Part shown: positions 8,040 through 58,923 of the stretch, piece by piece
Position numbering within the stretch: position 1 is the stretch's first letter
Layout of the letters: each line of letters starts with the position of its first letter
NCBI GenBank assembly: GCA_016213735.1
Contig: JACQZU010000020.1
Location: forward strand, 186,001 to 250,000
DNA: 64,000 nucleotides
Reading direction: 5' to 3'
From: Acidobacteriota bacterium
Lineage (GTDB): Bacteria; Acidobacteriota; Holophagae; Holophagales; Holophagaceae
The notes under the pieces: model-generated
Database searches by the model: none
The model's input: only the letters and a program-made list of their open reading frames with translations
What the model was told of the DNA's origin: nothing
Program-made: the position numbers and the translations under genes

Positions 8040-9035
8040 CTATCCTCGCGGGGCCCGCATCTGTCGGAAGGCCCTTTCCAGCTCGGCCTGGATTCTCGCC
8101 ACATCCTCGGGCTTCCAGGCCTCCATCGGCTCCCGCACGAAGGTGGTCTTGTCTTCGCGGTTGTCGAAGCGGGCGGCGGGCAGGTGGTAGGTGCGCGTGG
8201 CGAAACGGTCCCCGTCGGCCACGAGGCGGTCCACCCGGAGGGTGCCCGGCCGGTCGCTCTGCTCCAGCAACCAGGCGAAGTCGTCGCAGCCGTACTGGCC
8301 GAGCATGACTTCCTGAGGGACGCAGTGGTGGAGAATGCTGCCCTGGGCATCGGGGCGGCCCCTCTCCAGGTTCTTGCGCCGGCTCTCCGCGGGGTCCACC
8401 CAGATGTAGAGCAGGCTCCCGCGCTCCAGGATTTCCGTCGAGAGGTGCTGGAAGGCCGTCTCGTAGCCGTGGGGCGGGGTGAGGGGGAAGGCAGCGCCGT
8501 TGGGTCCCCCCCGGGCGGCCTCGATGACGATGGTCCGGCCTTCCGTGCCCAGGGCGTTCTGGCGGTTGAGGGTGTCCAATTCCGCCCGGCACTCGGCCTC
8601 CAGGGCTTCGGCCACCTTCCGGCGCACGGCCTTGGGCAGCTCGGCCATCTTCTCGTCCATGTGCAGCTTGGCGTGGGCGGCGTCCAGGCGCCGGAAGAGG
8701 CGCCGGGCGGCGCTCTTGGTTTCCACCTGGCGTCCCGCCCGCAGGTCGGCGTAGTCCTCGTTGAGGAGTTCGATGAGCACCGCCCAGGTCCAGTTGTCCT
8801 TGAAGGGCCTCGTGGGTCCCTGGAAGTAGGCGTAGGGATACCCCAGGGCCTTGAGCTCATCGTCGACGCGGTGCATCAGGTGGACGTAGGGATAGTCGTC
8901 CAACTGGAGGGTGGGCCCTATGCCGAAGGCCTCCCGGCACTGTTCGGGAGGGAGACTCCCCAGGTAGCGCCGCATCTCGGACTTTCCCGAGGCGGGCAGG
9001 GAGAAGAGGAGCAGGGTGTCGATCAGGCCGGTCAT
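8040..9035 (-). CDS. Uncharacterised P-loop protein (possible nucleotide kinase-like)
   Basis: 331 aa, not recognised. The N-terminus LLLFSLPASGKSEMRR looks like a Walker A strand-loop-helix placed directly at the start of the protein, as in small kinases and gluconate or adenylate kinase-like proteins. A later hydrophobic strand LLYIWVDP followed by an Arg-rich segment (RRKNLERGR) would suit a Walker B or lid region. The chosen ATG (9035) begins M-T-G-L-I-D; upstream in-frame sequence has non-coding character. No membrane segments. It lies 196 bp from hypA on the same strand, divergent from the FHA-protease gene. Function unknown; substrate not inferable. Confidence 0.7.
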   Translation of the reverse strand: MTGLIDTLLLFSLPASGKSEMRRYLGSLPPEQCREAFGIGPTLQLDDYPYVHLMHRVDDELKALGYPYAYFQGPTRPFKDNWTWAVLIELLNEDYADLRAGRQVETKSAARRLFRRLDAAHAKLHMDEKMAELPKAVRRKVAEALEAECRAELDTLNRQNALGTEGRTIVIEAARGGPNGAAFPLTPPHGYETAFQHLSTEILERGSLLYIWVDPAESRRKNLERGRPDAQGSILHHCVPQEVMLGQYGCDDFAWLLEQSDRPGTLRVDRLVADGDRFATRTYHLPAARFDNREDKTTFVREPMEAWKPEDVARIQAELERAFRQMRAPRG

Positions 9036-9270
9036 GGGAGCCACCCTACCACGCAGAGAGCGCGGGTCCGCTGGGCTTGCCCCAGGCTGCCCCACCCGAA
9101 GGAATGGAGACCGAGGAACCGCGCCCGAGAAGGGATCACCCTCCTCACCTTTCCCCGCCCCGGACCCCCCTGGGAACCTCCCTGCCTTTCGCCTGCTTCC
9201 CATGGAGCGGAGGGTCCGGCCCGCAGGCCGGGCTACACTGGAACCACCCAACCCACGCAGAAGGATTGCA

Positions 9271-29500: not shown

Positions 29501-30767
29501 CGCCGGTGGCACCTACCAGGAACCCAGGCTGGACGGTGAACTGGAGCTTTCGAACGGCAGCTTCCGGCTCCGCAGCCTCAAACTTCCCCAGGGAATCGAG
29601 GACGTCACCTTCAAACTCCGGTTCCAGGGCCGGGAGATCCTGATCCCGGAGAAGGAGCCCCTGCTCGGCTACTTCGCCCAGGGGTCCCTGGGCGTGTGGG
29701 GCAGCGCCCGCTGGCAGCTGGGCGGTCTGGAGAGCTACTCCTTCCGGGGGCGCCTCCAGGATTTCCAGCTGCGGGACCTGCCCCATGGCGCGGAGCTTCG
29801 GGGCACCCTCCAGGCCAGCCTGGAGGGGACCGACCAGGGGGGGGGCATCCTCCGGGGAACCCTGGACGCCGAGCGGGCCTCCTACAAGACCGAGATCAGC
29901 ATCCGGGACCTGGTGCTGGGCGGGGTGAGCAGCGGCCCTGAACTCGGGGGCCTGGATCCCGAGGATCCCCTGGCCCGCATCGACCTGGACCTGGACCTCA
30001 ACCTGCACCAGCCCTGGGACCTGGATACGAACCTGATCAAGCTCCAGGGCCGCCCCGAGGGCAGCTTCAAGGTGCTGGGAACCCTGGCCCGCCCCGGCCT
30101 GAAGGGCCGCATGGACCTCCTTCCGGGGGGGCGCCTGACCAACCTGCTCCCTTCCGGGGATGTGGTCCTGGAGCGGGGAAGCATCACCTTCACCGACCCC
30201 CTCGTGACCAACCCTCTCCTGGCCCTGGAGGGGCGCATCGACGTTCCCCCCTACCTGGTGACCCTGGCCATCAACGGCACCGTGGACCAGTTGAACCTCG
30301 TCCCCAGCTCCACGCCCAACCTGCGCCAGGACGAAATCATCGCCATCCTCATCGACCCCACCGTGGCCCAGAGCATCGGCGCCGCCGGGGGGGGAGGCAG
30401 CCAGACCGCCCTCACCTACGGCATCGCCAACGCCAGCAGCGGCCTGCTGAGCACCCTGGCCTTCGCCAACTTCCAGGAGACCCTCCGCAAGACCCTTCAG
30501 CTGGACCGCGTCAGCGCTTCCGTTCGAACGGGGACCACCGGCAACCTCGAGACCAGCGTGACCCTGGGGAAGAGTCCGGAGCTCTTCGGCTCCAGGACGC
30601 CCATCATCGCCACCTACCGGCGCTCTGGGGAGCAGGTCACCCTCAGCGGCCAGGCCGAATGGCGCTTCGGGAATTTCGTGCTCCAGTTGGGGGTGAGCAG
30701 CCCCTTCACCCGGGGATCCGGCGTGGATCCCACCGGGGAGATCCGCTACACCTGGAGCCCCAAATGA
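26568..30767 (+). CDS. TamB-like (DUF490) inner-membrane-anchored envelope protein
   Basis: 1,399 aa. A Pro/Gly-rich cytoplasmic tail and one membrane helix (about 50-66) precede a very long beta-rich periplasmic region of AsmA/TamB type. The C-terminal DUF490 block (about 1175-1399) shows GRLTNLLPSGDVVLERGSIT-like strands and a PNLRQDEIIAIL segment. Such proteins form grooves bridging the two membranes and help phospholipid transport or outer-membrane protein assembly. No TamA/BamA-type partner is adjacent. The ATG at 26568 lies one base after the kinase stop. The 3' end overlaps a MoaD-like gene. Confidence 0.9.
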   Translation: MDPGSPVSGEPAPRTPEGPGPGEPASAGPEQPPRGGGRGPAPRRRWPRRLVYLLAAGSVVAGGAAWALRQPFAGRWALAELDRLSREETGLPFRASALDLDLLGGRVVLRDASWGGDLLRIGEVEVQLDTLSLLGSEPRIHAMRLANPRIVLDQDLLKGLRLKSRPKRDAMVRVQIGPVSVQGGSLALGPKAWGLPPARFAFLVDGHGLGENRLQGRLSLSDIEVPRLPKGQGYLDFDVSDKKVELRLLRLGLGKGQVESHATLDLASTALEGEASVQADLQECSAWAGAGGASGKIRARVVAKGTLDRPELDLEGHGTDLGHRDLPLRPLRLHLKGKADPDALRVSSLDLESEEGRLRLEGDWRKGSGIQARVQGTGLALSPLATAFRSKPLEGVQVDLEGALRWPQGAGPPRLDAIVLTGRASFSRQEQPAGQADLVWEGGSLRLASLSLRLPGVALQGNGEARLGPTGVNSLRAEGSIQTQASEVSQALFAWGIGEQAGRPGRLRPFEMAGAVEAKAAVTWNPAAGLSLDGQGTVAQPRWHGARADRVQSDVRIRGTRIWVENTEVRKGEGWGRGNLWVDWGSLPPGSDALDLCYTADRLPVAEGLRAADLGDLPIEGTGSGWVRIHGELDRLHLEGEGLLSGGRVYGMTVPSARAGIELDLAGNRLRIPEFRIAESPALLGFGETPPEGALALRGSLDMDLKEESWIGEVSGSLDSAVLSLGGPRFQAFVQGRLEGPWTRPFGPADLPQGRLGFQGGRIFIGSQSLEGLNGTFTLDSGLLQGAVGMAGRSQPFLALAGVSLPGRRMEGTVGFLVAPESADTPHLAARLSRDLLQDARADVQARGVWDAKGFQWEGMLRSFSGHFQGFDLLQSQPGRLEGDGASAKVDLHFESSPRERPPVNPGDPVAGPRNAPAKLHLAGLVPFTGAAPMSLRAEGGADLRDLKTILDHLLELENASGLLADFKPEGQARLDVTAGGTYQEPRLDGELELSNGSFRLRSLKLPQGIEDVTFKLRFQGREILIPEKEPLLGYFAQGSLGVWGSARWQLGGLESYSFRGRLQDFQLRDLPHGAELRGTLQASLEGTDQGGGILRGTLDAERASYKTEISIRDLVLGGVSSGPELGGLDPEDPLARIDLDLDLNLHQPWDLDTNLIKLQGRPEGSFKVLGTLARPGLKGRMDLLPGGRLTNLLPSGDVVLERGSITFTDPLVTNPLLALEGRIDVPPYLVTLAINGTVDQLNLVPSSTPNLRQDEIIAILIDPTVAQSIGAAGGGGSQTALTYGIANASSGLLSTLAFANFQETLRKTLQLDRVSASVRTGTTGNLETSVTLGKSPELFGSRTPIIATYRRSGEQVTLSGQAEWRFGNFVLQLGVSSPFTRGSGVDPTGEIRYTWSPK

Positions 30768-30991
30768 TCAGGGTCCTGGCCTTCGCGCGGTACCGGGAGC
30801 TCCTGGGCCATTCCGATCTGCAGCTCCCTTTGCCCGATCCCCCCACCCTGGAGGCCCTGCTCTCGGAACCGCGCCTCCGGCCCCTCCCCGGGGAGGCCCT
30901 CTTGGCCGTGAACCAGCGTTACGCGCGCCGGAACCAGGTCCTCCAGGACGGGGACGAGGTGGCCCTCCTGCCTCCGGTCTCGGGGGGCTGA
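30764..30991 (+). CDS. MoaD/ThiS-family small sulfur-carrier protein
   Basis: 75 aa, ubiquitin-like fold. It has V-L-A-F-A-R at the N-terminus, a beta-grasp pattern and the obligatory C-terminal Gly-Gly (PPVSGG) that is adenylated and thiocarboxylated. Probably the small subunit of molybdopterin synthase (MoaD), since a molybdoenzyme is encoded at 44.3 kb; ThiS or another sulfur carrier remains possible. No moaE or moeB is nearby. The ATG overlaps the TamB-like stop (ATGA), an odd pairing. Confidence 0.85.
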   Translation: MIRVLAFARYRELLGHSDLQLPLPDPPTLEALLSEPRLRPLPGEALLAVNQRYARRNQVLQDGDEVALLPPVSGG

Positions 30992-31104
30992 GCCGGGGCC
31001 GATCCCTCCCGAAGGCGCGCAGAATCTCGCTTCCCCGGTAGGGGTGCCCGTCCCCGACCGATCGAAGCAGCGGACGGGGTCACCCCGCCCGCTGCGCGGG
31101 GTCT

Positions 31105-31137
31105 GCGGGCCCAGGCGGCGCAGCCGCCGTTGCCCCC
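31105..31137 (-). repeat. Palindromic repeat family, copy C
   Basis: GCGGGC-CCA-GGCGGC-GCA-GCCGCC-GTT-GCCCCC: the same nested palindrome as at 14172-14198 but in opposite orientation and with the inner stem lengthened by 3 bp. One outer-stem mismatch. Confidence 0.8.
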
Positions 31138-31146
31138 AGTTGGGTT

Positions 31147-31173
31147 TGGTGGCTGGGGACGGACTCGAACCGT
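31147..31173 (-). pseudogene. tRNA-Met 3' fragment
   Basis: 27 nt identical to the T-arm strand, acceptor 3' strand, discriminator A and CCA of the functional tRNA at 31370-31446. The matching 5' acceptor strand GGCTGGG, D-arm and anticodon arm are absent, so it is not a functional tRNA. Confidence 0.85.
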
Positions 31174-31278
31174 GCCATGGGCTGGCCCCGGCCACGACGG
31201 ATCCGGTCGTCCACCGGACGACCTTCACCTGTGGCCTACCGGGCCGCCCATGTTCCTCGACGGTTCTAGTCCGTCCCC
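31155..31278. repeat. ~124-nt imperfect palindrome containing inverted tRNA T-arm copies
   Basis: The arms pair as follows. 31155-31173 pairs with 31260-31278 (18 of 19). Moving inward, CATGGGC/GCCCATG, GGCCC/GGGCC, GGCCAC/GTGGCC and GGTCGTCC/GGACGACC close on an ACC loop. The right arm (31257-31278) is an inverted copy of the tRNA T-arm, with one mismatch. Transcribed, it would form one long hairpin. Confidence 0.75.
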
Positions 31279-31286
31279 GGATGTCC

Positions 31287-31396
31287 GAAGCAGCGGACGG
31301 GGTCCCCCCGCCCGCTGCGCGGGGTCTGGGGGCCCAGGCGGCGCAGCCGCCGTTGCCCCCGGTTGGGTTTGGTGGCTGGGGACGGACTCGAACCGT
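31287..31396. repeat. 110-bp direct repeat, unit 2 (overlaps functional tRNA)
   Basis: Second unit of the 110-bp duplication. It ends inside the functional tRNA-Met and provides its downstream flank: the palindromic repeat 31328-31360 and a hairpin at 31290-31318, which may act as the tRNA terminator. Confidence 0.88.
31328..31360 (-). repeat. Palindromic repeat family, copy D (perfect)
   Basis: 33-nt perfect nested palindrome GGGGGC-CCA-GGCGGC-GCA-GCCGCC-GTT-GCCCCC, 9 nt beyond the 3' end of the tRNA. It is the best-conserved of the four copies in the window. Confidence 0.85.
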
Positions 31397-31446
31397 CGAC
31401 CTAAGGATTATGAGACCTTCGCTCTAACCACCTGAGCTACCCAGCC
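31370..31446 (-). tRNA. tRNA-Met (anticodon CAT), CCA encoded
   Basis: 77 nt on the minus strand. It has a 7-bp acceptor (GGCTGGG/CCCAGCC), a D-arm with GCTC...GAGC, an anticodon loop CTCATAA with CAT, a T-arm GACGG-TTCGAGT-CCGTC, discriminator A and a genomically encoded CCA. Elongator tRNA-Met is preferred. A tRNA-Ile2 (CAT, lysidine-modified) cannot be fully excluded by eye. It lacks the C1-A72 mismatch expected of initiator tRNA. Confidence 0.93.
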
Positions 31447-31458
31447 GGAACAGGCAGT

Positions 31459-32604
31459 CTATCGTGCGGAAGAGCCGAGATCCAGCGTGGTTCTCGGGGG
31501 GGCCAGCACGTCCTCGTAAAGGGACTCGTACATGTCCACCACGGGGCCTTCCGCGAAGTCTCCCAGGGCCCGGTCGCGGGCGCTTTCGCCCATGGCCCGG
31601 CGCCGGGGCTCGTCGGAGAGAAGCTCCACGGATCGGGCGGCCATGGCCCCCACGTCGCCCATGGGTTCCAGGAAGCCGTCCAGGCCGTGGCGGATGACCT
31701 CGGGAACCCCTCCCACCCTGGAGGCCACCACGGGGACCCCGTAGGCCATAGCCTCCAGGGCCGCCAGGCCGAAACTCTCGGTGGCACTGGTGAGGAGGAA
31801 GAGGTCGCTGCAGGCCAGCACGGCCCCGATGTCCAACTGCTTCCCGGTGAAACGGACCCAGGGGTCCAGCCCCCGGTCCCGGGCGAAGCCTTCCGCCTCG
31901 GCCCGGTCCGGCCCGTCTCCCACCATGACCAGGCGGGCATCCACTTCCCGGCGAACCCTCTCGAACACCTGCATCACGTCCATCACCCGCTTGACCGGCC
32001 GGAAATTCGAGATGTGGGTGAGCACCTTGGCCCCCGCCGGGGCCAGCCAGCTCCGGCAGTTGGAGCTTTCCCCCGGGGGAGGCTCGACGAAATTGGGGAT
32101 CACCCTGATGTCCCGGTCCACGCCGAAGGTGCGGTCGGTCTCCTCCTTCAGGAAGCGGCTCACGGCCGTGACGGCGTCGCTGGCCCTGATGGCCAGGCGA
32201 ACCATGGGCAGGTAGCTGGGGTCGGCCCCCACCACGGTGATGTCCGTGCCGTGGAGGGTGGTGACCACCTTGAGGCCATCCCCGAGGGCCATGCGAGCCA
32301 GCAGGGCGCTGAGGGCGTGGGGGAGCGCGTAGTGGGCGTGGAGGATCTCCAGGCCATGGTGGGCGGCCACGTCCGCCATCTTGGAGGCGAGGCTCACCGT
32401 GATCGGCGACGACTCGAAGAGCGGGTAGGGGGCGGCCGTCACTTCGTGGAAGGTGACCCGGTCCTCGAAGCCCAGAAGCCTGGGAGGGACGGCCGTGCTG
32501 AGAATGTGGACTTCGTGCCCCCGGGCGGCCAGGGCCTTGCCCACCTCGGTGGCCACCACCCCGGAACCACCAAAGGTGCTGTAGCAGGAGATGCCGATGC
32601 GCAT
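31459..32604 (-). CDS. bshA: N-acetyl-alpha-D-glucosaminyl L-malate synthase (bacillithiol synthesis)
   Basis: 381-aa GT4 glycosyltransferase that joins UDP-GlcNAc and L-malate in the first step of bacillithiol synthesis. BshA hallmarks include the N-terminus GISCYSTFGGSGVVATE, HAHYALPHA, TTLHGTDITVVG and the GT4 donor motif SATESFGLAALEAMA (about 285-300). The ATG is at 32604. No bshB or bshC in the window. It lies 12 bp from the tRNA-Met on the same strand and is divergent from yggT. Confidence 0.92.
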   Translation of the reverse strand: MRIGISCYSTFGGSGVVATEVGKALAARGHEVHILSTAVPPRLLGFEDRVTFHEVTAAPYPLFESSPITVSLASKMADVAAHHGLEILHAHYALPHALSALLARMALGDGLKVVTTLHGTDITVVGADPSYLPMVRLAIRASDAVTAVSRFLKEETDRTFGVDRDIRVIPNFVEPPPGESSNCRSWLAPAGAKVLTHISNFRPVKRVMDVMQVFERVRREVDARLVMVGDGPDRAEAEGFARDRGLDPWVRFTGKQLDIGAVLACSDLFLLTSATESFGLAALEAMAYGVPVVASRVGGVPEVIRHGLDGFLEPMGDVGAMAARSVELLSDEPRRRAMGESARDRALGDFAEGPVVDMYESLYEDVLAPPRTTLDLGSSAR

Positions 32605-32673
32605 GAAGGCCCCTTCCGGAAGGTTATGATGGGAGCGAAGCTGCGGGCTGAACAGCCCCCGTCCGAGGAATCC

Positions 32674-32916
32674 TTGATCGCCATCGCCAACCTGCTCATC
32701 GACGCCTTGATCCTGCTGATCCTGGTCTCCAGCGTCATGAGCTGGTTTCATCCCGATCCCCGGAACACCTTCGTCCGCCTGGTGAACGCCGTGGTGGAGC
32801 CCCTGCTCCACCCCATCCGCGCCGTCATGCCTGCCGTGGGCCCCTTCGACCTGAGTCCGCTGGTCGCCTTCGCCGTCCTCATGCTCCTCCAGCGCCTTCT
32901 CCAGGGCGCCCTGTGA
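32674..32916 (+). CDS. YggT-family membrane protein
   Basis: 80 aa from a TTG start with two hydrophobic helices and the YggT signature SWFHPDPRN...PLLHPIRAVMP. YggT proteins occur near cell-division genes, and a DivIVA-like gene follows 10 bp later. TTG 32674 is preferred: GAGGA lies 4-5 nt upstream, and TATGAT at 32625-32630, which overlaps the in-frame ATGs at 32626/32629, looks like a -10 element. Starting at 32626 would add 16 residues. Confidence 0.82.
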   Translation: MIAIANLLIDALILLILVSSVMSWFHPDPRNTFVRLVNAVVEPLLHPIRAVMPAVGPFDLSPLVAFAVLMLLQRLLQGAL

Positions 32917-32926
32917 GGGACCTGCC

Positions 32927-33457
32927 ATGAAATTCACCCCCCTCGACATCCAGCGCCGCGAGTTCGAGAAGGCCTTCCGGGGTCTGGAGGAAGGAGAGGT
33001 CCGGGGATTCCTCCATGAGATCGCCGCCGAGTGGGAGGAGCTTCTGGCCGCCAACCAGCGCCTCCGGGAGGAGATCGTGGAGTTGCGTGAACGCAACCGG
33101 CAGTACCAGGATCAGGACCGCATCTTCCGGGAGACCCTTCTGCAGGCCCAGCGCACCAAGGAGGACATCCTGGAGGCGGTCCACCGGGAAAAGGACCTCC
33201 TGATCCGCGAGGCCCAGTTCAAGGGAGACGAACTCATCCGCCAGGCTGAACAGCGGGTGATCGCCCTGGAGGTCCAGATCCGGGACCTCAAGCTGGAGCG
33301 CGCCCGCTTCCTCCAGGAATTCGAGGCTCTCCTGAACCGGTCCCGGCGATTCATTCACGAGGTGGCCCCGGAGATCTTCCCCCCGGGGGACCCCACGGTC
33401 CGTCTGGACGAACTGGATCTGGGGGGCGACACCCCCCCCCACGGCGTCCAGCCCTGA
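32927..33457 (+). CDS. DivIVA-domain coiled-coil protein
   Basis: 176 aa. The N-terminal DivIVA-type motif [19 protein letters not shown]...VRGFL (residues 3-30) is followed by a long Glu/Arg/Gln-rich coiled coil (about 35-150) and an acidic tail. Such proteins mark curved membrane at poles or septum and recruit division or envelope machinery. It lies between yggT and a thiolase gene; the yggT pairing resembles Gram-positive division clusters. Confidence 0.87.
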
Positions 33458-33471
33458 ATTGGGAGGCATCC

Positions 33472-34647
33472 ATGCCCCATGCAGTGATCCTCAAAGCCCT
33501 GCGCACCCCCATCGGCAAGTTCCAGGGGGCCCTGGCGTCCCAGGGAGCGCCCGATCTGGGCGCCGCCGTGGTGAAGGCACTCCGGAAGGCCTTCCCGGGG
33601 GCCGAGCCGGGGGAGGCCATTTTTGGGAATGTCGTCTCCGCCGGCATCGGCCAGGCCCCTGCCCGCATCGCCGCCCTCCGGGGAGGCCTTTCCCCAGCCA
33701 CCACCGCCCTGACCGTGAACAAGGTCTGCGGCTCCGGCCTCAAGGCCATCCAGCTGGCTGCTGCAGGCGTCCTGATGGGGGACCACGACCTGATCCTGGC
33801 CGGGGGGATGGAGAGCATGAGCAACGCCCCCTACCTGCTGCCCAAGCTCCGTGCGGGCGCCCGCATGGGTCACGCCCAGGCGGTGGATGCCATGATCCAG
33901 GACGGGTTGTGGTGTGCCCACACGGACCAGCACATGGGGCTCACAGGGGAACTGGTGGCCGAGAAGTACCAGGTTCCCCGGGAAGCCCAGGATGCCTGGG
34001 CCGCAGAGAGTCACGCGAAGGCCCTGGCCGCCCAGCAGGCCGGCGCGTTCGCAGGGGAGATCGTCCCCGTGACGATTCCAGGGAAGAAGGGCGACACCGT
34101 GGTGGATGCCGACGAGGGCCCCCGGGCGGATTGCACCCTGGAGAGCCTGGCCCGCCTCAAGCCCGCCTTCAAGAAGGACGGCAGCGTCACCGCGGGCAAC
34201 GCTCCTTCCGTGAACGACGGCGCGGCCGCCGCCCTGGTCTGCACCGAGGAATTCGCCCGGGCCCAAGGATGGCCCATCCAGGCCCGGATCCTGGGCTGGG
34301 CCACCGCCGGGGTGGAGCCCCAGTGGGTTCTCATGGCCCCCGTGGAAGCGATCCGGAAACTCCTGGACAGGCTGGGCTGGGGTGCCCAGGACGTGGACCT
34401 CTGGGAGATCAATGAGGCCTTCTCCGTGCAGATGGTGGCCACGGCCCGGGAACTCGGCATTCCCCCTGAACGGATCAACGTGCACGGCGGAGCCGTGGCG
34501 CTGGGCCACCCCATCGGCGCCAGCGGCGCCCGGGTGATGGCCACCCTCCTGCACGCCCTGGAGCGGCACGGAAAGGCGCGCGGCGTGGCGGCCCTCTGCC
34601 TCGGGGGAGGCAACGCCATCGCCATGGCGGTGGAGCGATCCTCTTGA
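33472..34647 (+). CDS. Acetyl-CoA C-acetyltransferase (thiolase)
   Basis: 391 aa, standard for biosynthetic or degradative thiolases. Nucleophile Cys86 is in NKVCGSGLK, His346 in LGHPIGASG and the second catalytic Cys376 in ALCLGGGNA. It condenses two acetyl-CoA to acetoacetyl-CoA or cleaves 3-ketoacyl-CoA. GGGAGG lies about 6 nt before the ATG. It overlaps the DinB gene (TTGA). Confidence 0.94.
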
Positions 34648-35108
34648 GCGAGCTGGAGCGCCTCCAGGACCAGTTCAAACGCCTTTTCAATGGTCCGGCC
34701 TGGCATGGCCCCGCCCTCCTGGAGCTCCTCCAGGACCTCAGCGCCCTCGAGGCCCGGACCCGGCCCCTGCCCGGCGTCCACAGCCCGGGGGAACTCCTCC
34801 GCCACATGCTCGCCTGGCGGCAACTGGTGATCCACCGACTGCGAGGGGACGACGCCTACCGGGTCAGCGACGCCCAGAACTGGGCCGGCTGTGCGGCCGA
34901 CGAGGCGGAGTGGACCAGCGACCTGGAAGCTTTCCGGGCCTCCCAGCGGGAATTGATGCTGCTCCTGGGACGATTCAATCCCGGGCTCCTCGATGTCCAG
35001 GCCCCCGGCTCGGACGTGAGCTGGTACACCCTTTTCCACGGGCTCCTCCAGCACGACATCTACCACCTGGGCCAGATCGGAATGCTGAAGCGGGCCCTTC
35101 GGGGCTGA
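34644..35108 (+). CDS. DinB-family four-helix protein
   Basis: 154 aa starting at TTG 34644, which overlaps the thiolase stop. It shows the DinB/YfiT metal-site pattern: His in LLRHMLAW and [10 protein letters not shown] with H-x3-H. Members are metal-binding, often thiol-dependent transferases or damage-induced proteins. Because bshA is nearby, a bacillithiol-dependent role is thinkable, but it is not shown. Confidence 0.85.
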
Positions 35109-35180
35109 GCCACGGTCGGGCATGTCGCCATTTTTTGATTGATGCCGTTTTTTACCAATTGATCAAATGCAATCACGGGC

Positions 35181-35208
35181 TTGACGGCCCATCCTCACGG
35201 CCTATACC
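35181..35208 (+). promoter_or_regulatory. Strong sigma70-type promoter
   Basis: TTGACG (35181-35186), 16-bp spacer, TATACC (35203-35208), the closest consensus match in the window. Upstream 35130-35175 is strongly AT-rich, with TTTTTT runs (UP-element-like) and the palindrome TTGATCAA at 35159-35166, which could be an operator. Predicted start near 35215, about 20 nt before the GTG of the small ORF. Confidence 0.7.
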
Positions 35209-35233
35209 TCCTACAAAGCCTCAGGAGACCTAG

Positions 35234-35320
35234 GTGAAGGAGCGTCGCAGGCATCGCCGGCTGAGATTCCTGTTCATGGATCTTCACGCCTTCTGGCGCC
35301 GCTTCATCGCCCGCCGCTGA
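35234..35320 (+). CDS. Candidate 28-aa basic small protein
   Basis: GTG start with AGGAG about 6-7 nt ahead and a strong promoter 26 bp upstream. The product is rich in Arg and aromatic residues: V-K-E-R-R-R-H-R-R-L start, F-L-F-M-D-L-H-A-F-W centre and R-R-F-I-A-R-R end, so an amphipathic basic helix is likely. It ends 6 bp before the convergent arfB stop. It may encode a small regulatory or membrane-binding peptide, or the transcript may act as RNA. Confidence 0.45.
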   Translation: MKERRRHRRLRFLFMDLHAFWRRFIARR

Positions 35321-35326
35321 GCGCCC

Positions 35327-35749
35327 TCACTCCCAGCCCCCGCTGCGCTCGCGTTTCCGGGTACCGGTGCGCTTCTTGGCCTCCACCCGCCGGGCCTGGC
35401 TGGCCCGGGTGGGACGCGTGGGGACCCGGGGCCGGGGCGCCACGAGGCATCGCAGCAGCGCGAGGCGGATCTTCTCTCGGGCATCCTCCAGGTTGAGCGG
35501 CTGGTCCCGGGTCCGATCGCTCACCACGATCCAGCGCCCCTCGGCGTCCAGCTGATTGCGGATCGCGTGGCCCAGGCGGTCCCTGGAGGCGGGGTCGAGG
35601 CCCTGGATGGCCTCCAGGTCCACGCGGAGTTCCACCTTGCTGGAGACCTTGTTCACATTCTGTCCTCCGGGGCCGCCCGACCGAACGGCCTTGAAGGACA
35701 GGGCATCCCCGGGCACCCGTACTTGATCCGTCACCACGATGGGGTCCAC
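35327..35749 (-). CDS. arfB: Alternative ribosome-rescue peptidyl-tRNA hydrolase
   Basis: 140 aa, the same length as E. coli ArfB (YaeJ). The catalytic GGQ is at residues 28-30 (SGGPGGQNVNKV). The C-terminal basic tail (KKRTGTRKRERSG) inserts into the empty mRNA channel of stalled ribosomes. GTG 35749 is chosen because GGAAGGG precedes it; longer in-frame extensions overlap the next kinase gene. Probably co-transcribed with the histidine kinase upstream on the minus strand. Confidence 0.92.
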   Translation of the reverse strand: MDPIVVTDQVRVPGDALSFKAVRSGGPGGQNVNKVSSKVELRVDLEAIQGLDPASRDRLGHAIRNQLDAEGRWIVVSDRTRDQPLNLEDAREKIRLALLRCLVAPRPRVPTRPTRASQARRVEAKKRTGTRKRERSGGWE

Positions 35750-35762
35750 GGCGTTCCCTTCC

Positions 35763-36944
35763 CTACCAGCGGATCTCGGCGCAGGTTCCCCCGCCATCCC
35801 GGGGCCGCAGCCGGAGGTCGGCACCCTGGGCGTTCAGCCACTTCAGGGCCAACGGCAGGCCCAGGCCCGTGCCGTCCGGGCGGCCGCTCTCGAAGGGACG
35901 GAGGAGGCGCTGGAGTTCGGCGTCCGGGATTCCTGGACCCCGGTCCAGGATCCGCAGGGTCCCCTCCTCGAGTTCCATGGTCACGGTGGCACCCCCGGGG
36001 GAAGCCTGCGCCGCGTTCTCCACGAGGTTGAGGAGGGCCTGCTGAAGCAGCTGGGGGTCCGCCAGGGCCCGGCCGCTCCCCTTCAGCTCCAGGTGCAGGC
36101 CCTGGCCCCCCGGGCGCCGGCCCACCTCCTCCAGCACCGCCGCGGCGACCTCCCCCAGGTCCAGGCTGCGGCAATCGGGCTGGAGGGGCCTCGCCCACTG
36201 GAGGAAACGCTGCACCACCCGCCCGAGGGCGTCCGTCTCCTCCTCCAGCTCCCGGCCTGTCTCCTCCTGGCCCGAGCGCCGAAGCAACTGTGCATGGCCC
36301 TTGAGGACGGCGAGCCCGTTCTTCAACTGGTGGGCCACTCCCGCCGTCATCTCCCCCAGTTCCGCGAAGCGGTCCCGAAGCATCCGGCGCCGCTCCTCGG
36401 CCTCCCGTTCCGTGACGTCCTCGAACTGCAGGAGGGCCCCGATCCGGGCTGGGGCCTCGATTCGCCGCAGGAGCCAGCGGCGCTCTCCATCCCCGGTGCG
36501 CCAGGCCTCCCCCGACACCCGTCGAAGCCCATCCAGCAGCCAGGGGAAGGGTTCCAGGACGAAGTCCACGTCCAGGCCGACCACGCCCTGCTTCACGCCC
36601 AGGAGACGCCGACCCTCCTCGTTGAAGCCAGCCACCCGGTTCTGGGGATCCACCCACAAAAGCCCGAAGGGCAATGCGTCGAGGATGCGTTCGTGAACCG
36701 TGCGCAACTCCCCCAGGGAGGCTGCCAGGGCCCCCCGTTCCTGAAGGCTGGAACTCACCGCCCCCAGCAGCAGGGCCTCCGGGTCCACCCTGGGCCGGGA
36801 CAGCCGCGCCCACCGAACCACGAAGAAGGCCAGCGCCGCCAACACGAAGACGACCGGGAGGCCCAGCACGATCCAGGCGAGAAGGGGGTTGGGGCTCGGC
36901 ACAAGGGAGATGGTAGCGCCACCGTCGCTGCGGCTGCGCCGCAT
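35763..36944 (-). CDS. Membrane-linked sensor histidine kinase with PAS domain
   Basis: About 393 aa. One membrane helix near the N-terminus (PLLAWIVLGLPVVFVLAALAF) is followed by a PAS-like domain (about 90-190), phospho-acceptor His in GVAHQLKNGLAV, N-box NLVENAAQ, G1 DRGPGIP and G2 GTGLGLPLA. NtrB/ZraS-like histidine-box style. The start is uncertain: ATG 36944 is adopted, and GTG 36902 just before the helix is an alternative. No response regulator gene is adjacent. Confidence 0.88.
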   Translation of the reverse strand: MRRSRSDGGATISLVPSPNPLLAWIVLGLPVVFVLAALAFFVVRWARLSRPRVDPEALLLGAVSSSLQERGALAASLGELRTVHERILDALPFGLLWVDPQNRVAGFNEEGRRLLGVKQGVVGLDVDFVLEPFPWLLDGLRRVSGEAWRTGDGERRWLLRRIEAPARIGALLQFEDVTEREAEERRRMLRDRFAELGEMTAGVAHQLKNGLAVLKGHAQLLRRSGQEETGRELEEETDALGRVVQRFLQWARPLQPDCRSLDLGEVAAAVLEEVGRRPGGQGLHLELKGSGRALADPQLLQQALLNLVENAAQASPGGATVTMELEEGTLRILDRGPGIPDAELQRLLRPFESGRPDGTGLGLPLALKWLNAQGADLRLRPRDGGGTCAEIRW

Positions 36945-37133
36945 CCCTTCCCGCGGGCGCACCCGAACCAGCCCGCCCCTGCTCCTTCGGCACCCGGGAG
37001 ACACGGGGCCGGTGGGAATGAGGGCCCCTCATTCCGATCAAAGTGCTCCATCTTCGAAGGGTCCCCTGGGGCCGAGGCCCCCTGGTGGCCGGGACTCCGG
37101 GGCCATGGGGATTATTCTCTCTGGGGGGGACCC

Positions 37134-37259
37134 ATGAAATACGTTCGGGGAATCGCCATGCCCAGGACCGCCCGCAGGGTCATGACCCTCTTGGGCCTGA
37201 GAGCCTTCCGCCCGCCCGAGGGCGGAGCGGGCCCCATCCTCCGCGGGGGCAGGGCATGA
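37134..37259 (+). CDS. Candidate 41-aa leader ORF upstream of cupin
   Basis: ATG 37134 to TGA 37259, whose last bases overlap the cupin ATG (ATGA). Product is basic (MKYVRGIAMPRTARR start), with no known motif. A G-rich stretch 5 nt upstream may serve as a poor ribosome site. It could be a real small protein or a leader that couples translation of the cupin gene. Confidence 0.3.
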   Translation: MKYVRGIAMPRTARRVMTLLGLRAFRPPEGGAGPILRGGRA

Positions 37260-37600
37260 GCCCGGAATCCATCCTCACCGCGAAACGCTACGCCTGGGGC
37301 CAGGGATGCGAAGGCTGGCACCTTCTCAGGGCCCCGGGCCTCCACGTGATCCAGGAGCGGGTGCCCCCCGGAGCCGGGGAACGGCGCCACTTCCACGGCT
37401 CCGCCCGGCAGTTTTTCTATGTGCTTTCCGGCCGTGCGGTCATGGAGGTGGAAGGACAGGAACACCTCCTCCAGATGGGGGATTGCATCCATGTTCCCCC
37501 GGGGGCGAACCACCAGTTCCGGAACCCCTTCGGAGAGCCCGTGGATTTCCTGGTGGTGTCCCAGCCTTCCTCCCACGGGGACCGCACGGACCTGCCCTGA
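37256..37600 (+). CDS. Single-domain cupin protein
   Basis: 114 aa. The cupin barrel has motif 1 ERRHFHGSARQFFYVLSG (metal ligands His and Glu/Gln positions) and motif 2 GDCIHVPPGANHQFRNP. Function within the superfamily cannot be assigned; many such proteins bind small ligands or isomerise sugars. ATG overlaps the short upstream ORF. Convergent with the PPK2 gene, ends 3 bp apart. Confidence 0.87.
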   Translation: MSPESILTAKRYAWGQGCEGWHLLRAPGLHVIQERVPPGAGERRHFHGSARQFFYVLSGRAVMEVEGQEHLLQMGDCIHVPPGANHQFRNPFGEPVDFLVVSQPSSHGDRTDLP

Positions 37601-37603
37601 GCC

Positions 37604-39082
37604 CTACAGGGCCTCCTCGATCCTTTCGCACAGGGTCCTCAGAATCTTGATCCGGGCGTAGAGCTTGTCCTCGCTCTCCACCAGGGTCCAGGGGGCGATC
37701 TCGGTGCTGGTGCGGGCCACCATGTCGCAGACGGCGGCCTCGTAGGCCGGCCACTTCTCGCGGTTGCGCCAGTCCTCCTCCGTGATCTTGAAGCGCTTGA
37801 AGGGGGTCTCCTGGCGCTCCTGGAAGCGGCGCAACTGCTCTTCCGGGGAGATGGCCAGCCAGAACTTCGCGAGAATGGCCTTGCTCTTGGCGATCTGGGC
37901 CTCGAAGTCGTTGATCTCGCCGTAGGCGCGCATCCAGTCCGCCTCCGCGCAGAACCCCTCCACCCGTTCCACGAGGACCCTGCCGTACCACGACCGGTCG
38001 AAGATCAGGATCTTCCCCCGGCCCGGCAGGTGACGCCAGAAGCGCCACAGGTAGGGCTGGGCGCGCTCCTCCTCCGTGGGGGCCGCGATGGGGACGATGC
38101 GGCAGAGCCGGGCGTCCACCGCCTGGGTGATGCGCCGGATGCTGCCCCCCTTCCCCGCGGCGTCGGATCCCTCGAAGACCAGCACCACGGCGCGCTCCTT
38201 GAAGCGCTTGTGCCGGGTCAGGACGCTCAGCTTCCCCTGCCAGGCCTCCAGCTCCCGATCGTAATCGACCCGTTCCATCCGTTTCGAGAGATCCAACGCC
38301 CGCAGGACGTTCAGTCCATCCAGAGCGGGCGGTGCCGGCGGAGCCTTCACGGCCGCAGGTCCGGTGGAAGGACGGTCCAGGCGGGCCCGGAGGGCCTGCA
38401 GCAGGACCCGCCCCACCGTGAGCTTCTGGTAGCGGGCGTCGGTGGCCTCCACCACGATCCAGGGGGCGTCCGCGGTGCTGGTGAGGCGCAGGGCCCGTTC
38501 CGCCGCCTCCCGGAGGGCGTCGTAGCGCTTGAAGTGCTTCCAATCCCGAGGGGTCACGCGCCAGGAGGTCTTCGGGTCGGCCTCGAGCTTTGTGAGGCGC
38601 TTCTTCTGGACCCCCTTGGAGAGGTGCATCCAGAACTTGAGAATCAGCGCCCCCTCGTCAATGAGCATCTGTTCGAAGCGGCGCACCAGTTCCATGTCCT
38701 GGTCCAGTACCTCGTGCCCGATCCTTCCGTTGCCACACTCATTGATGGGCCAGGTGTACCAGCTGCCGTCGAAGATCCCGATCTTCCCTTTCGGGGGCAG
38801 GGCCCGCCAGTATCGCCACATGTACGGTCGGTGCAGTTCCTCGTCGGTGGGCGCGTCGAATCCGTTGGTCTGCACGTGGCGGGGATCCATCCACTCGTTC
38901 AGGGTGGAGACCACCGCGCTCTTTCCAGCCCCGTCCACTCCAGCCACCAGGAGGATCACGGGGAATTTCTTGGCGGCCACGAGGTCGTACTGGGAGTCCA
39001 GGAGGGCCTCCCGAAGCCCCGAGACCTCCAGGGTGTAGGCCTCCTTCTCGACGCGGTGACCCAGTTCGGCGGACTCGAACAT
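37604..39082 (-). CDS. pap: Polyphosphate:AMP phosphotransferase-type tandem PPK2 protein
   Basis: 492 aa with two consecutive PPK2 domains, the architecture of class II PPK2 (PAP), which makes ADP from AMP and polyphosphate. Domain 1 (about 20-240) has Walker A GVDGAGKSA and a divergent FDGSWY. Domain 2 (about 280-490) has GSDAAGKGG and canonical FDRSWYGR, so the C-terminal copy is likely catalytic. ATG 39082 follows GGAGGTCCGCG. The K+ channel gene lies 52 bp upstream on the same strand. Confidence 0.9.
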   Translation of the reverse strand: MFESAELGHRVEKEAYTLEVSGLREALLDSQYDLVAAKKFPVILLVAGVDGAGKSAVVSTLNEWMDPRHVQTNGFDAPTDEELHRPYMWRYWRALPPKGKIGIFDGSWYTWPINECGNGRIGHEVLDQDMELVRRFEQMLIDEGALILKFWMHLSKGVQKKRLTKLEADPKTSWRVTPRDWKHFKRYDALREAAERALRLTSTADAPWIVVEATDARYQKLTVGRVLLQALRARLDRPSTGPAAVKAPPAPPALDGLNVLRALDLSKRMERVDYDRELEAWQGKLSVLTRHKRFKERAVVLVFEGSDAAGKGGSIRRITQAVDARLCRIVPIAAPTEEERAQPYLWRFWRHLPGRGKILIFDRSWYGRVLVERVEGFCAEADWMRAYGEINDFEAQIAKSKAILAKFWLAISPEEQLRRFQERQETPFKRFKITEEDWRNREKWPAYEAAVCDMVARTSTEIAPWTLVESEDKLYARIKILRTLCERIEEAL

Positions 39083-39134
39083 CGCGGACCTCCTGGTGCG
39101 GGTGTATCGGTGCGGCGTGGGGGGGACCTGAATT

Positions 39135-40583
39135 CTAGGCCCAGGGCCACAGGCGGGCCATGGGAACCATGGCCAGGACCCTGCTCCCCATGGCCAAGGG
39201 CCGCTCCCCCGGGAAGGGTTCCTCCTGGAGGCCCCTTTCGGCCAGCACCTGCCAACCCCCTGCGTCTTCGAGCAGCGTAAGGGCCCTGGAATCCAGGGAA
39301 TGTGCGAGGAAGGCGGGGGCGGCGAGGGCGGAAGCCGAGAGCGCCGTGTGGATGTGGAAGTGCCGCTCGATCCGGTCCGCGAAGCCCCCATCGAAGATCC
39401 GCAGCACCACATGAAGGGCCGGCCTCAGGGCCTTGGCCGCGAGTCCGATCTCCAGGGCGGTCAGGTCGTCGTTGATGGCGCATACCAGGGCCCTGGCCCG
39501 GCCGGCATTGGCGTCCCACAGGGCCCGAGCGTGGGTGGCGTCCGAGACCATGTACGGAATGCGCCGGAAGGACAGTTCCTGGAGAAGGGGGTTGGCCGGG
39601 TCCCGCTCGATGACGATGACGGGCACTCCCAGGTCCCGCAGGCGCGTGGCCACGGCGGCGCCCAGGGTCCCCAGGCCGCAGACAACGACGTGGTTCCGGA
39701 GGTGGAAACGCCGTCGCCCTTCCAGGGCGTCGCCGCGTTTCTGCACGAGGATGTTCGTGACGATGGCGAAAAGGCAGGCCGTCAGGGTCACGCTGGTGAG
39801 CATCAGGAGGACCCCCACCAGCTTGGCGGAGTCCGGCGCGTCCCGGAGGCTGTAATCGCCGTATCCCACCGTGCAGAAGGTGGTCACCACAAAGTAGAGG
39901 GCCTGGATCCAATGCAGGCCCTGGGTGAAGTGGAAGTAGGCCGTGGCGCCCGCGAGGGTCACGAAGATGAGGACCAGCAGCAGGAGCAGGTAACGGTCCA
40001 CCCCCCCCGTGAGACGGGCGAGGCCTCCCTGGAGTCCGGGCTCCTCGGGGGCCCGGGGGCCCGAGGCCACCAGGTCCCGCAGCGGCCGAAGTCCAGGGAC
40101 ACCCTGGGATTCGTCTTCCGGCGCGGCCCCAAGGGCGTAGGCCTCCCCGCCGAAGTCCAGGGCGAAGGGGAAACCCCGCCGCAGTGCGGCGGCCGCAAAG
40201 CAGGGAGCGGAGAGTTCCGGGGAACTGAGCACCGCGCAGTTCTCCAGCTCCCGGGCCACCTTCCGTCCCAGTTCGGGGTCGGCCAGGGCGATCACCAGGC
40301 GGAGCTTGGGACAGGCGTCCCGGAAGGCGAGGGCCCTTGATAAGTTCTGCTCGTCCCGAACGTCGCAGAAGAGGGCCGCGTCGGCCTCCAGGGCCTCGGG
40401 TGCCTCGAGGAGCTCCGCGATGTCCAGCCCCGGGGGATGGACCTGGAGCCCCTTCCAGCTCTGGAGCGTCTCCGCCGCGGGCTCGCCCCCGGTCCAAAGC
40501 GCCGCCTTGACCCCGAGGCGGCGTGCGAGCTGGCCCAGGCGGGCCGCGAGATGGGACTGTCCGACCACCAGGATCCTGGGCAC
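39135..40583 (-). CDS. Two-TM potassium channel flanked by two TrkA-N-like domains
   Basis: 482 aa. An N-terminal nucleotide-fold domain (residues 1-150, RILVVGQSHLAARLG) precedes helix 1 (about 197-217), a pore loop with selectivity filter TVGYGD (238-243), helix 2 (about 253-280) and a C-terminal RCK/TrkA-N domain (about 295-415, VVCGLGTLGAAVATRL). Most bacterial Kch or MthK channels have an RCK only after the pore; the N-terminal copy is unusual. GTG start with AAGGAGA 7 nt ahead. Confidence 0.9.
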   Translation of the reverse strand: MPRILVVGQSHLAARLGQLARRLGVKAALWTGGEPAAETLQSWKGLQVHPPGLDIAELLEAPEALEADAALFCDVRDEQNLSRALAFRDACPKLRLVIALADPELGRKVARELENCAVLSSPELSAPCFAAAALRRGFPFALDFGGEAYALGAAPEDESQGVPGLRPLRDLVASGPRAPEEPGLQGGLARLTGGVDRYLLLLLVLIFVTLAGATAYFHFTQGLHWIQALYFVVTTFCTVGYGDYSLRDAPDSAKLVGVLLMLTSVTLTACLFAIVTNILVQKRGDALEGRRRFHLRNHVVVCGLGTLGAAVATRLRDLGVPVIVIERDPANPLLQELSFRRIPYMVSDATHARALWDANAGRARALVCAINDDLTALEIGLAAKALRPALHVVLRIFDGGFADRIERHFHIHTALSASALAAPAFLAHSLDSRALTLLEDAGGWQVLAERGLQEEPFPGERPLAMGSRVLAMVPMARLWPWA

Positions 40584-57713: not shown

Positions 57714-57750
57714 TTTGTTTTTTCACTTGTTTTTCGTTTTTTATTCGTTA
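57714..57750. promoter_or_regulatory. AT-rich, T-tract regulatory region upstream of ImuB-like gene
   Basis: In a GC-rich genome this stretch carries T-runs at about 57716-57723, 57730-57734 and 57737-57742. It also has a direct repeat TTCGTT (57733-57738 and 57744-57749, 11-bp period). Phased T-tracts suggest intrinsic curvature, and the direct repeat could be an operator. No clear -35/-10 pair. Confidence 0.4.
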
Positions 57751-57780
57751 AATTAGGATCCCCTCGCCTGGAGGTGATCC

Positions 57781-58923
57781 ATGCTGGCCCTGTGGGTGCC
57801 CGAACTGCCCTTCCAGTTGGCCTGCGCCCGGGACCCGGCCCTCCGGGAGCGCCCCCTGGCCTTCCTCAACCCGGAGTGCCCCCGCACGCCCACCCTCTGG
57901 TTCGTGAACCGCCTGGCCCGGGGCGAGGGCCTGCGGCCCGGGGATCCCCTGGACAAGGCCCTGCGGGCCGCCCCGGGCCTCTCCGTGCTCGACCCGGCGC
58001 CCCAGATCTGGTGGGAGGCCCAGGGCAGCTTCGCCGACTTCCTGCAGCGCTGGACCCCCCAGGGTCAGCTGGGCCGCCTGGGAGAGGCCCTGGTGGAACT
58101 GCGGGGCCTGGAGCGCCTCAGCGGCCCCCCCCGGGACACGGCCCTGCGCATGGCCGGAGATCTGCGGGGCCGCTACGGCTGGTCCAGCCACGGCGGCCTC
58201 AGCGCCAGCGCCACCGCCGCCCACCTGGCCGCCCACCTGGAACAGCGTCTGGAATGCGTGCCCGAGGGTTTCGAGGCCAGCTTCCTCGCACCCCAGTCCC
58301 TGCGCCGGCTGCCGGACCTGGCGCCCCGCATCCGCACCCGCTTCCAGCGCCTGGGCCTGCGCCGCTTCGAGGACCTCCAGCCCATGCCCCTGCCCGTGCT
58401 CTGCGAACTGGTGCCCGAACGCCTGGCCCCCACGATCCTGGCCCAGGTGCGCGGGGAGGACCGTCCCCGCCTGCCCCTGCTGGCGGACCCGCCGGGATCC
58501 AGCCGCACCCCCTGGCGCCTGGACCCCCCGCGCCTGCCGGAGGAGCTGCGCCTCGCGGCCTGGTGCCTGGGGCGCCTCTGGGAGGACGCCCGCAGCCCCC
58601 GCAAGCTGGCCCTGCGCTGGTGGGACGTGGACGGCGAGCCCCACTTCTGGAAGGCGGCCGGCGAACTGCTGCTCCAGTCCCCCCTGGAACTGGCCCGGGC
58701 CGTGGAGGGCGCCTTCCTGGGCCTCTGCACCCGCCGCATCCTCGTCCGGGAGCTGGAACTTCGGATCCACTGGGGCCTGGGCCGCGTCCGCCCCCTCTTC
58801 CAGGAGCCCCGGGCCCAGAAGCTGGACCGCCTGGAGCCCGCCCTGGCCCGCCTGCGCACGCGCTACCCCGGCGCCCCGGTGCAGCCGGGCTGGCTGCGGA
58901 AGACGGGAACCGCCAGGCCCTGA
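57781..58923 (+). CDS. ImuB-like (non-catalytic Y-family polymerase) protein
   Basis: 380 aa. The N-terminus LALWVPELPFQLA and the pattern RPLAFLN...ARGEGLRPGDPL resemble the ImuB/DinB palm and fingers. The catalytic Asp-Glu of Y-family polymerases (SIDE) is replaced around VELRGLERL, as in ImuB. A little-finger-like C-terminal region follows. ImuB acts as an adaptor in DnaE2-dependent mutagenesis. No imuA or dnaE2 lies in the window. GGAGGTGATCC ribosome site precedes the ATG. Confidence 0.65.
   Translation: MLALWVPELPFQLACARDPALRERPLAFLNPECPRTPTLWFVNRLARGEGLRPGDPLDKALRAAPGLSVLDPAPQIWWEAQGSFADFLQRWTPQGQLGRLGEALVELRGLERLSGPPRDTALRMAGDLRGRYGWSSHGGLSASATAAHLAAHLEQRLECVPEGFEASFLAPQSLRRLPDLAPRIRTRFQRLGLRRFEDLQPMPLPVLCELVPERLAPTILAQVRGEDRPRLPLLADPPGSSRTPWRLDPPRLPEELRLAAWCLGRLWEDARSPRKLALRWWDVDGEPHFWKAAGELLLQSPLELARAVEGAFLGLCTRRILVRELELRIHWGLGRVRPLFQEPRAQKLDRLEPALARLRTRYPGAPVQPGWLRKTGTARP

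Follow-up and report, generated by a model that had tools for sequence, protein, structure and literature searches.

A 28-codon open reading frame convergent with arfB is very probably a small-protein gene with relatives in hemerythrin tails and phage genes

A 28-codon open reading frame (ORF) that begins with GTG and lies tail-to-tail with arfB raises the question of whether it encodes a small protein or is a chance reading frame in an RNA antisense to the 3' end of arfB. The window, a 64,000 nucleotide stretch of an Acidobacteriota genome (Holophagaceae), has a GC content of 69%, and the ORF is found there among a DinB_2 gene, arfB and a kinase-like ORF. The ORF, the AGGAG-GTG start, an AT-rich tract upstream of the promoter (approximately 35130-35160), the palindrome and the convergent arfB gene are all present where the initial annotation placed them. 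The features of the locus are as follows.

34644..35108, + strand: DinB_2 superfamily gene (PF12867, E 6.9e-13), upstream neighbour outside the unit
35141..35160, + strand: T-rich upstream element GATGCCGTTTTTTACCAATT, at -93 from the start codon, located with a weight matrix
35159..35166, strand not applicable: palindrome TTGATCAA, read from the sequence
35181..35208, + strand: candidate sigma-70 type promoter TTGACG-16-TATACC (TTGACG 35181-35186, TATACC 35203-35208), 9/12 to consensus
35223..35227, + strand: ribosome site AGGAG, 6 nt ahead of the GTG at 35234, read from the sequence
35234..35320, + strand: probable small-protein ORF, GTG start, 28 codons and a stop, MKERRRHRRLRFLFMDLHAFWRRFIARR, supported by a leave-one-out profile, homologs and pS > pN
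35327..35764, - strand: arfB (RF-1 domain protein; PF00472, E 3.7e-13), convergent neighbour outside the unit, with its stop beginning 6 nt past the end of the ORF

Searches of genomes from the same family with the single peptide repeatedly hit unlinked loci through residues 3-25; these loci read as small ORFs with the core DRRKHRGPFRFLYMDLKAFLRRYLG. A profile search gave matches in 46 of 77 genomes at E <=0.1, nearly all from one sister genus; the strongest are near 1e-19, and the weakest are short partial matches that may be due to chance. When the profile was built without the window peptide, the peptide scored 36.0 bits (E 4e-8 for 200,000 sequences), while the best of 5000 composition shuffles reached 12.9 bits and the next-best of 1010 reading-frame segments from the window 6.7. 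With the rows of cellular stand-alone copies only, the peptide scored 15.9 bits versus 7.5 for shuffles, and it is therefore placed between the cellular and the phage types. Stand-alone copies of 30-38 aa occur in 28 of the 47 genomes of the sister genus. The remaining 19, several of them nearly complete, lack the small gene, indicating that it is dispensable. Beyond the family, 396 genomes of the phylum yielded one convincing match, MIYLDRRRHTTLRFLWMDLGEFWHRVLRPRLGL, and this scarcity serves also as a negative control for chance matches to Arg-rich sequence.

As read from the alignments, the family core can be written as (D/E)RRxH-x(2-5)-R(F/I)L(Y/F/W)(M/I)(D/S/P)LxxF(L/W)xR. Arg 4, 5 and 11 (window peptide numbering) are invariant and Arg 23 is near-invariant in the alignments. 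Codon alignment of 22 stand-alone copies gave pS 0.56 and pN 0.21, and changes at codon positions 1, 2 and 3 numbered 1302, 878 and 2075, with the fewest at position 2. The ORF region has no nucleotide-level match in the relatives, and conservation is thus at the protein level. Frame-disrupting substitutions in relatives, which the initial annotation had named as the finding that would speak against the peptide, were sought in homologs that occupy different loci. The frame is intact in most, but two copies in the sister genus look degenerate: L197 (near 668) and L205 (near 3165) are truncated, match only in the C-terminal half (…FLRRYL…) and have no start codon before the core, and are probably decayed. 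Longer versions with at least 2 consecutive ERR/DRR motifs (e.g. MPDRRNSPFARRTSRERRVRFWDRRRHAGPLRILWISLEDLLPRLLYFL) are present at L198, L200, L201 and L204, and the tandem motifs suggest growth of the basic half by repetition.

The family is very probably undescribed and absent from the databases searched. No family in Pfam, NCBIfam or PHROGs matches the peptide (in PHROGs, 0 matches for 10 peptides including the phage homologs), a PDB profile search returned nothing significant (best E 0.69), and no description was found in the open-access literature.

The upstream region adds a second line of evidence. The promoter had been called the best in the window; its sequence and 16-nt spacer are real, but at 9/12 it is tied for best and not unique, as 5 window sites reach 9/12 at spacers of 15-19 and 3 do so at 16-18. 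A stricter scan that demanded T at position 6 of the -10 hexamer found no site in 30000-40000. Neither TTGACG/TATACC at a matching position nor, by eye, the TTGATCAA palindrome was seen in the upstream regions of the relatives. As judged from these regions, the upstream feature common to the window and its relatives is a T-rich tract, not the exact promoter. A motif search of 18 upstream regions recovered TTTGCCGnTTTTTT with an EM score of 143.9 versus 60-71 in shuffled sets. In a 20-nt weight matrix built from 17 relatives with the window left out, the site at 35141 ranks 1 of 127,962 window positions; specificity declines with a 30-nt matrix, in which the window site drops to rank 4. Allowing up to 1 mismatch, TGCCGTTTTTTAC has a single occurrence in the genome. 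Across the stand-alone branch the element lies approximately 82-117 nt upstream of the reference codon, a range that includes the -93 of the window ORF. CTTG or CTGG follows the element within a few bases in most relatives; in the window CTTG comes approximately 15 nt later, so that there is no clear conservation of where the -35 TTGACG lies. The tract may be either part of a promoter or a regulator site. GGAG/AGGAGG-like sites precede several of the starts in relatives and are weak in others.

A second T-rich tract (TTTTTCGTTTTTTATTCGTT) lies at 57719-57780 in the window, ahead of a gene at 57781 for an ImuB-like Y-family polymerase. The sole perfect genome matches to a relaxed T-rich pattern are the small-gene site and the site before imuB (57732). 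This pattern was derived from both sites, so the imuB match is not independent evidence, and a regulon common to the two genes via the T-rich element was rejected. The hemerythrin-fusion genes described below (L189, L194 and L195) have a different upstream pattern, an AT-rich GTTAAC...TTAAT tract followed by TGGTAGGAATG.

Homologs, codon-level constraint and the common upstream element bear out the suggestion of a small protein, and by this sequence conservation the ORF is very likely a genuine, separately transcribed small-protein gene. Its neighbourhood bears on the alternative, a regulatory RNA antisense to the 3' end of arfB in which the ORF has arisen by chance. Convergent orientation across a 6-nt gap would suit such an RNA, as would the failure to find a terminator-like site between the ORF and arfB on the + strand. 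However, the tail-to-tail arrangement is frequent among stand-alone homologs, with stop-to-stop gaps of 1-20 nt in twelve cases and 52-158 nt in six, and the convergent genes there are different. In the sister genus the stand-alone gene is typically flanked on one side by a divergent mscS-type gene and on the other by a convergent gene that is hmgA-like (homogentisate-dioxygenase-like) or encodes a POT-family transporter, these names being readings of the sequence and not the result of a family search. The mscS and hmgA genes of the window species are on another contig, separated by approximately 6 kb in which the small gene is missing. The ORF was not recovered at any of the arfB loci of 29 relatives (best score 9.1 bits), and the intergenic part of the ORF-arfB locus has no DNA match in relatives. 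The retention of the unit next to changing neighbours speaks against a function linked to arfB. Consistent with this, arfB was rejected as a functional partner, given the absence of the ORF at the 29 arfB loci and the other convergent neighbours in relatives. Predicted RNA folding is no better than in shuffles (z -0.8 to -0.1), Rfam gave 0 matches at E up to 1, and an RNA would not account for peptide homology and codon constraint. The antisense RNA offered by the initial annotation is thus very improbable.

What the protein might do is suggested by the settings in which relatives within the same Acidobacteriota family occur: stand-alone genes, N-terminal tails of hemerythrin proteins, and small genes of prophages and viruses. 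In 9 sister-genus genomes a segment of approximately 30 residues begins a protein of approximately 180-190 residues, the remainder of which is a hemerythrin domain (PF01814); 3 of these fusions were checked against Pfam (E 1.6e-14, 1.4e-14 and 3.2e-10) and the rest were aligned with these or read from the sequence. All 9 fusion genomes also hold a stand-alone copy (9/28 versus 0/19; Fisher p 0.005, a value that ignores shared ancestry). AlphaFold predicts for the fusion a tail (residues 1-58) mostly below pLDDT 50-60, a flexible linker and a confident four-helix bundle, and for the free peptide only a short C-terminal helix, both models being of low confidence within the peptide. The segment is thus like bacteriohemerythrin-type proteins in forming their N-terminal tail. 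Unlike them, the window ORF is the tail alone, without the HHE metal-binding four-helix domain and without a Pfam match. No hemerythrin fusion with this tail was found in the window species, and competition therefore cannot operate there by way of a recognised tail.

Divergent members such as MSAIDRREHTGFLRILWIDVIDLWYRILRPHMFGGLR sit in prophage-like operons. A degenerate DNA pattern identified two contigs in IMG/VR, carrying MKPRERRTHPFLRILFIDVADLWFRILRPRLLGGFR and MHNRRERTRLRILFIDLVDLWYRILRP, while a second DNA pattern for the cellular type had no match in viral contigs; tblastn found none in phage records and one chance-level match in plasmids. Genes next to the phage copies match the exonuclease subunit of a phage DNA polymerase together with a sigma factor (L252), or that subunit (L202); in the viral contig L253 a match to a DnaC-like loader lies approximately 2 kb away. 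Directly upstream of the L253 copy is a long ORF of Gly-Ser-Tyr repeats (8721-9192, - strand), whose alternative frames give Ala-Pro-Thr and Arg-rich repeats.

A docking peptide explains most simply how one short segment can serve on its own, as a flexible tail and in phages, and hence it was inferred that the free protein, the hemerythrin tails and the phage copies have a small docking peptide in common. As a whole, this explanation stands at about even chances of being right. The short basic peptide would be disordered when free, and binding to a partner would order its hydrophobic stretch and the short helix at its C-terminus. In its free form it would take up, modulate or target the site used by the hemerythrin tails, a handle on the host that would serve phages as well. 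Docking itself, a partner and the competition are held more tentatively, at somewhat less than even chances. Hemerythrin proteins sense or store oxygen, NO or iron. It is conceivable, though rather unlikely, that one host target receives all three peptide forms, with the phage copies hijacking the docking site and the free peptide tuning hemerythrin recruitment.

Other explanations were considered less probable than a docking peptide. Both the free peptide and the hemerythrin tail could attach to the membrane on its inner side; the tail would then anchor hemerythrin, and the free form would act on the membrane itself. All members do have a net positive charge together with Phe, Trp, Leu or Ile, but the helical hydrophobic moment of the window peptide is not above that of shuffles (a proportion of 0.57 equal or exceed it) and is marginal in other members (0.06-0.83 of shuffles), and the 19-residue stretches tested have a mean hydrophobicity close to zero, which argues against a transmembrane segment. 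Membrane association is accordingly judged unlikely. The moment analysis likewise does not support an amphipathic helix as a general property of the family. A type I toxin is not supported either, since the hydrophobic transmembrane segment characteristic of that class is absent (mean hydrophobicity of residues 10-28, -0.10). Small basic ribosome-associated proteins provide a model in which arginines contact RNA, and the four arginines, counted as invariant across 24 members, could contact RNA or DNA in a similar manner. However, the peptide has just one basic segment, a short one, accompanied by a conserved hydrophobic stretch; its PDB profile matches are insignificant, and nucleic-acid binding is not an obvious role for a hemerythrin tail. 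A nucleic-acid- or ribosome-binding protein is thus a shade less likely still than a membrane peptide. A domesticated or decaying prophage gene, left over without a host role, would fit the existence of phage versions and the higher score of the window peptide when phage rows are in the profile (36.0 versus 15.9 bits). Against this, no phage genes were recognised beside the window copy, and its upstream element is the one found with cellular stand-alone copies; this origin is improbable, though less so than an antisense RNA.

Comparison with known systems gives partial parallels. PilZ-domain proteins carry an N-terminal RxxxR-like basic motif, and the window peptide has R4xxxR8. However, it is only 28 residues long, lacks the [DN]xSxxG motif and a beta-barrel domain, and has no Pfam match. 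In plants, the binding partner of the IRON MAN/FEP peptides is a hemerythrin protein. Such a short peptide has a motif in common with a larger protein and modulates binding to a partner. By analogy only, the small protein resembles these peptides (PMC9226616); no sequence relation is claimed, and here it is the hemerythrin that carries the peptide. The window gene is also like those in the Enterobacteriaceae survey of conserved intergenic small proteins (PMC11188072) in being an intergenic gene in the range of 15-70 codons, outside annotated families and found by protein-level conservation. It differs in lineage and in that its family has a multi-domain relative, the hemerythrin tail, as well as phage relatives.

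The locus indicates that a 28-codon ORF with a GTG start, spotted by eye in a genome of 69% GC, can be a real gene. The small-protein family to which it belongs is very probably undescribed and, unlike most such families, offers a hint of its function, namely fusion to hemerythrin and carriage by phages. If the docking model is true, one binding partner would explain all three forms and would point to a host process that is exploited by phages.
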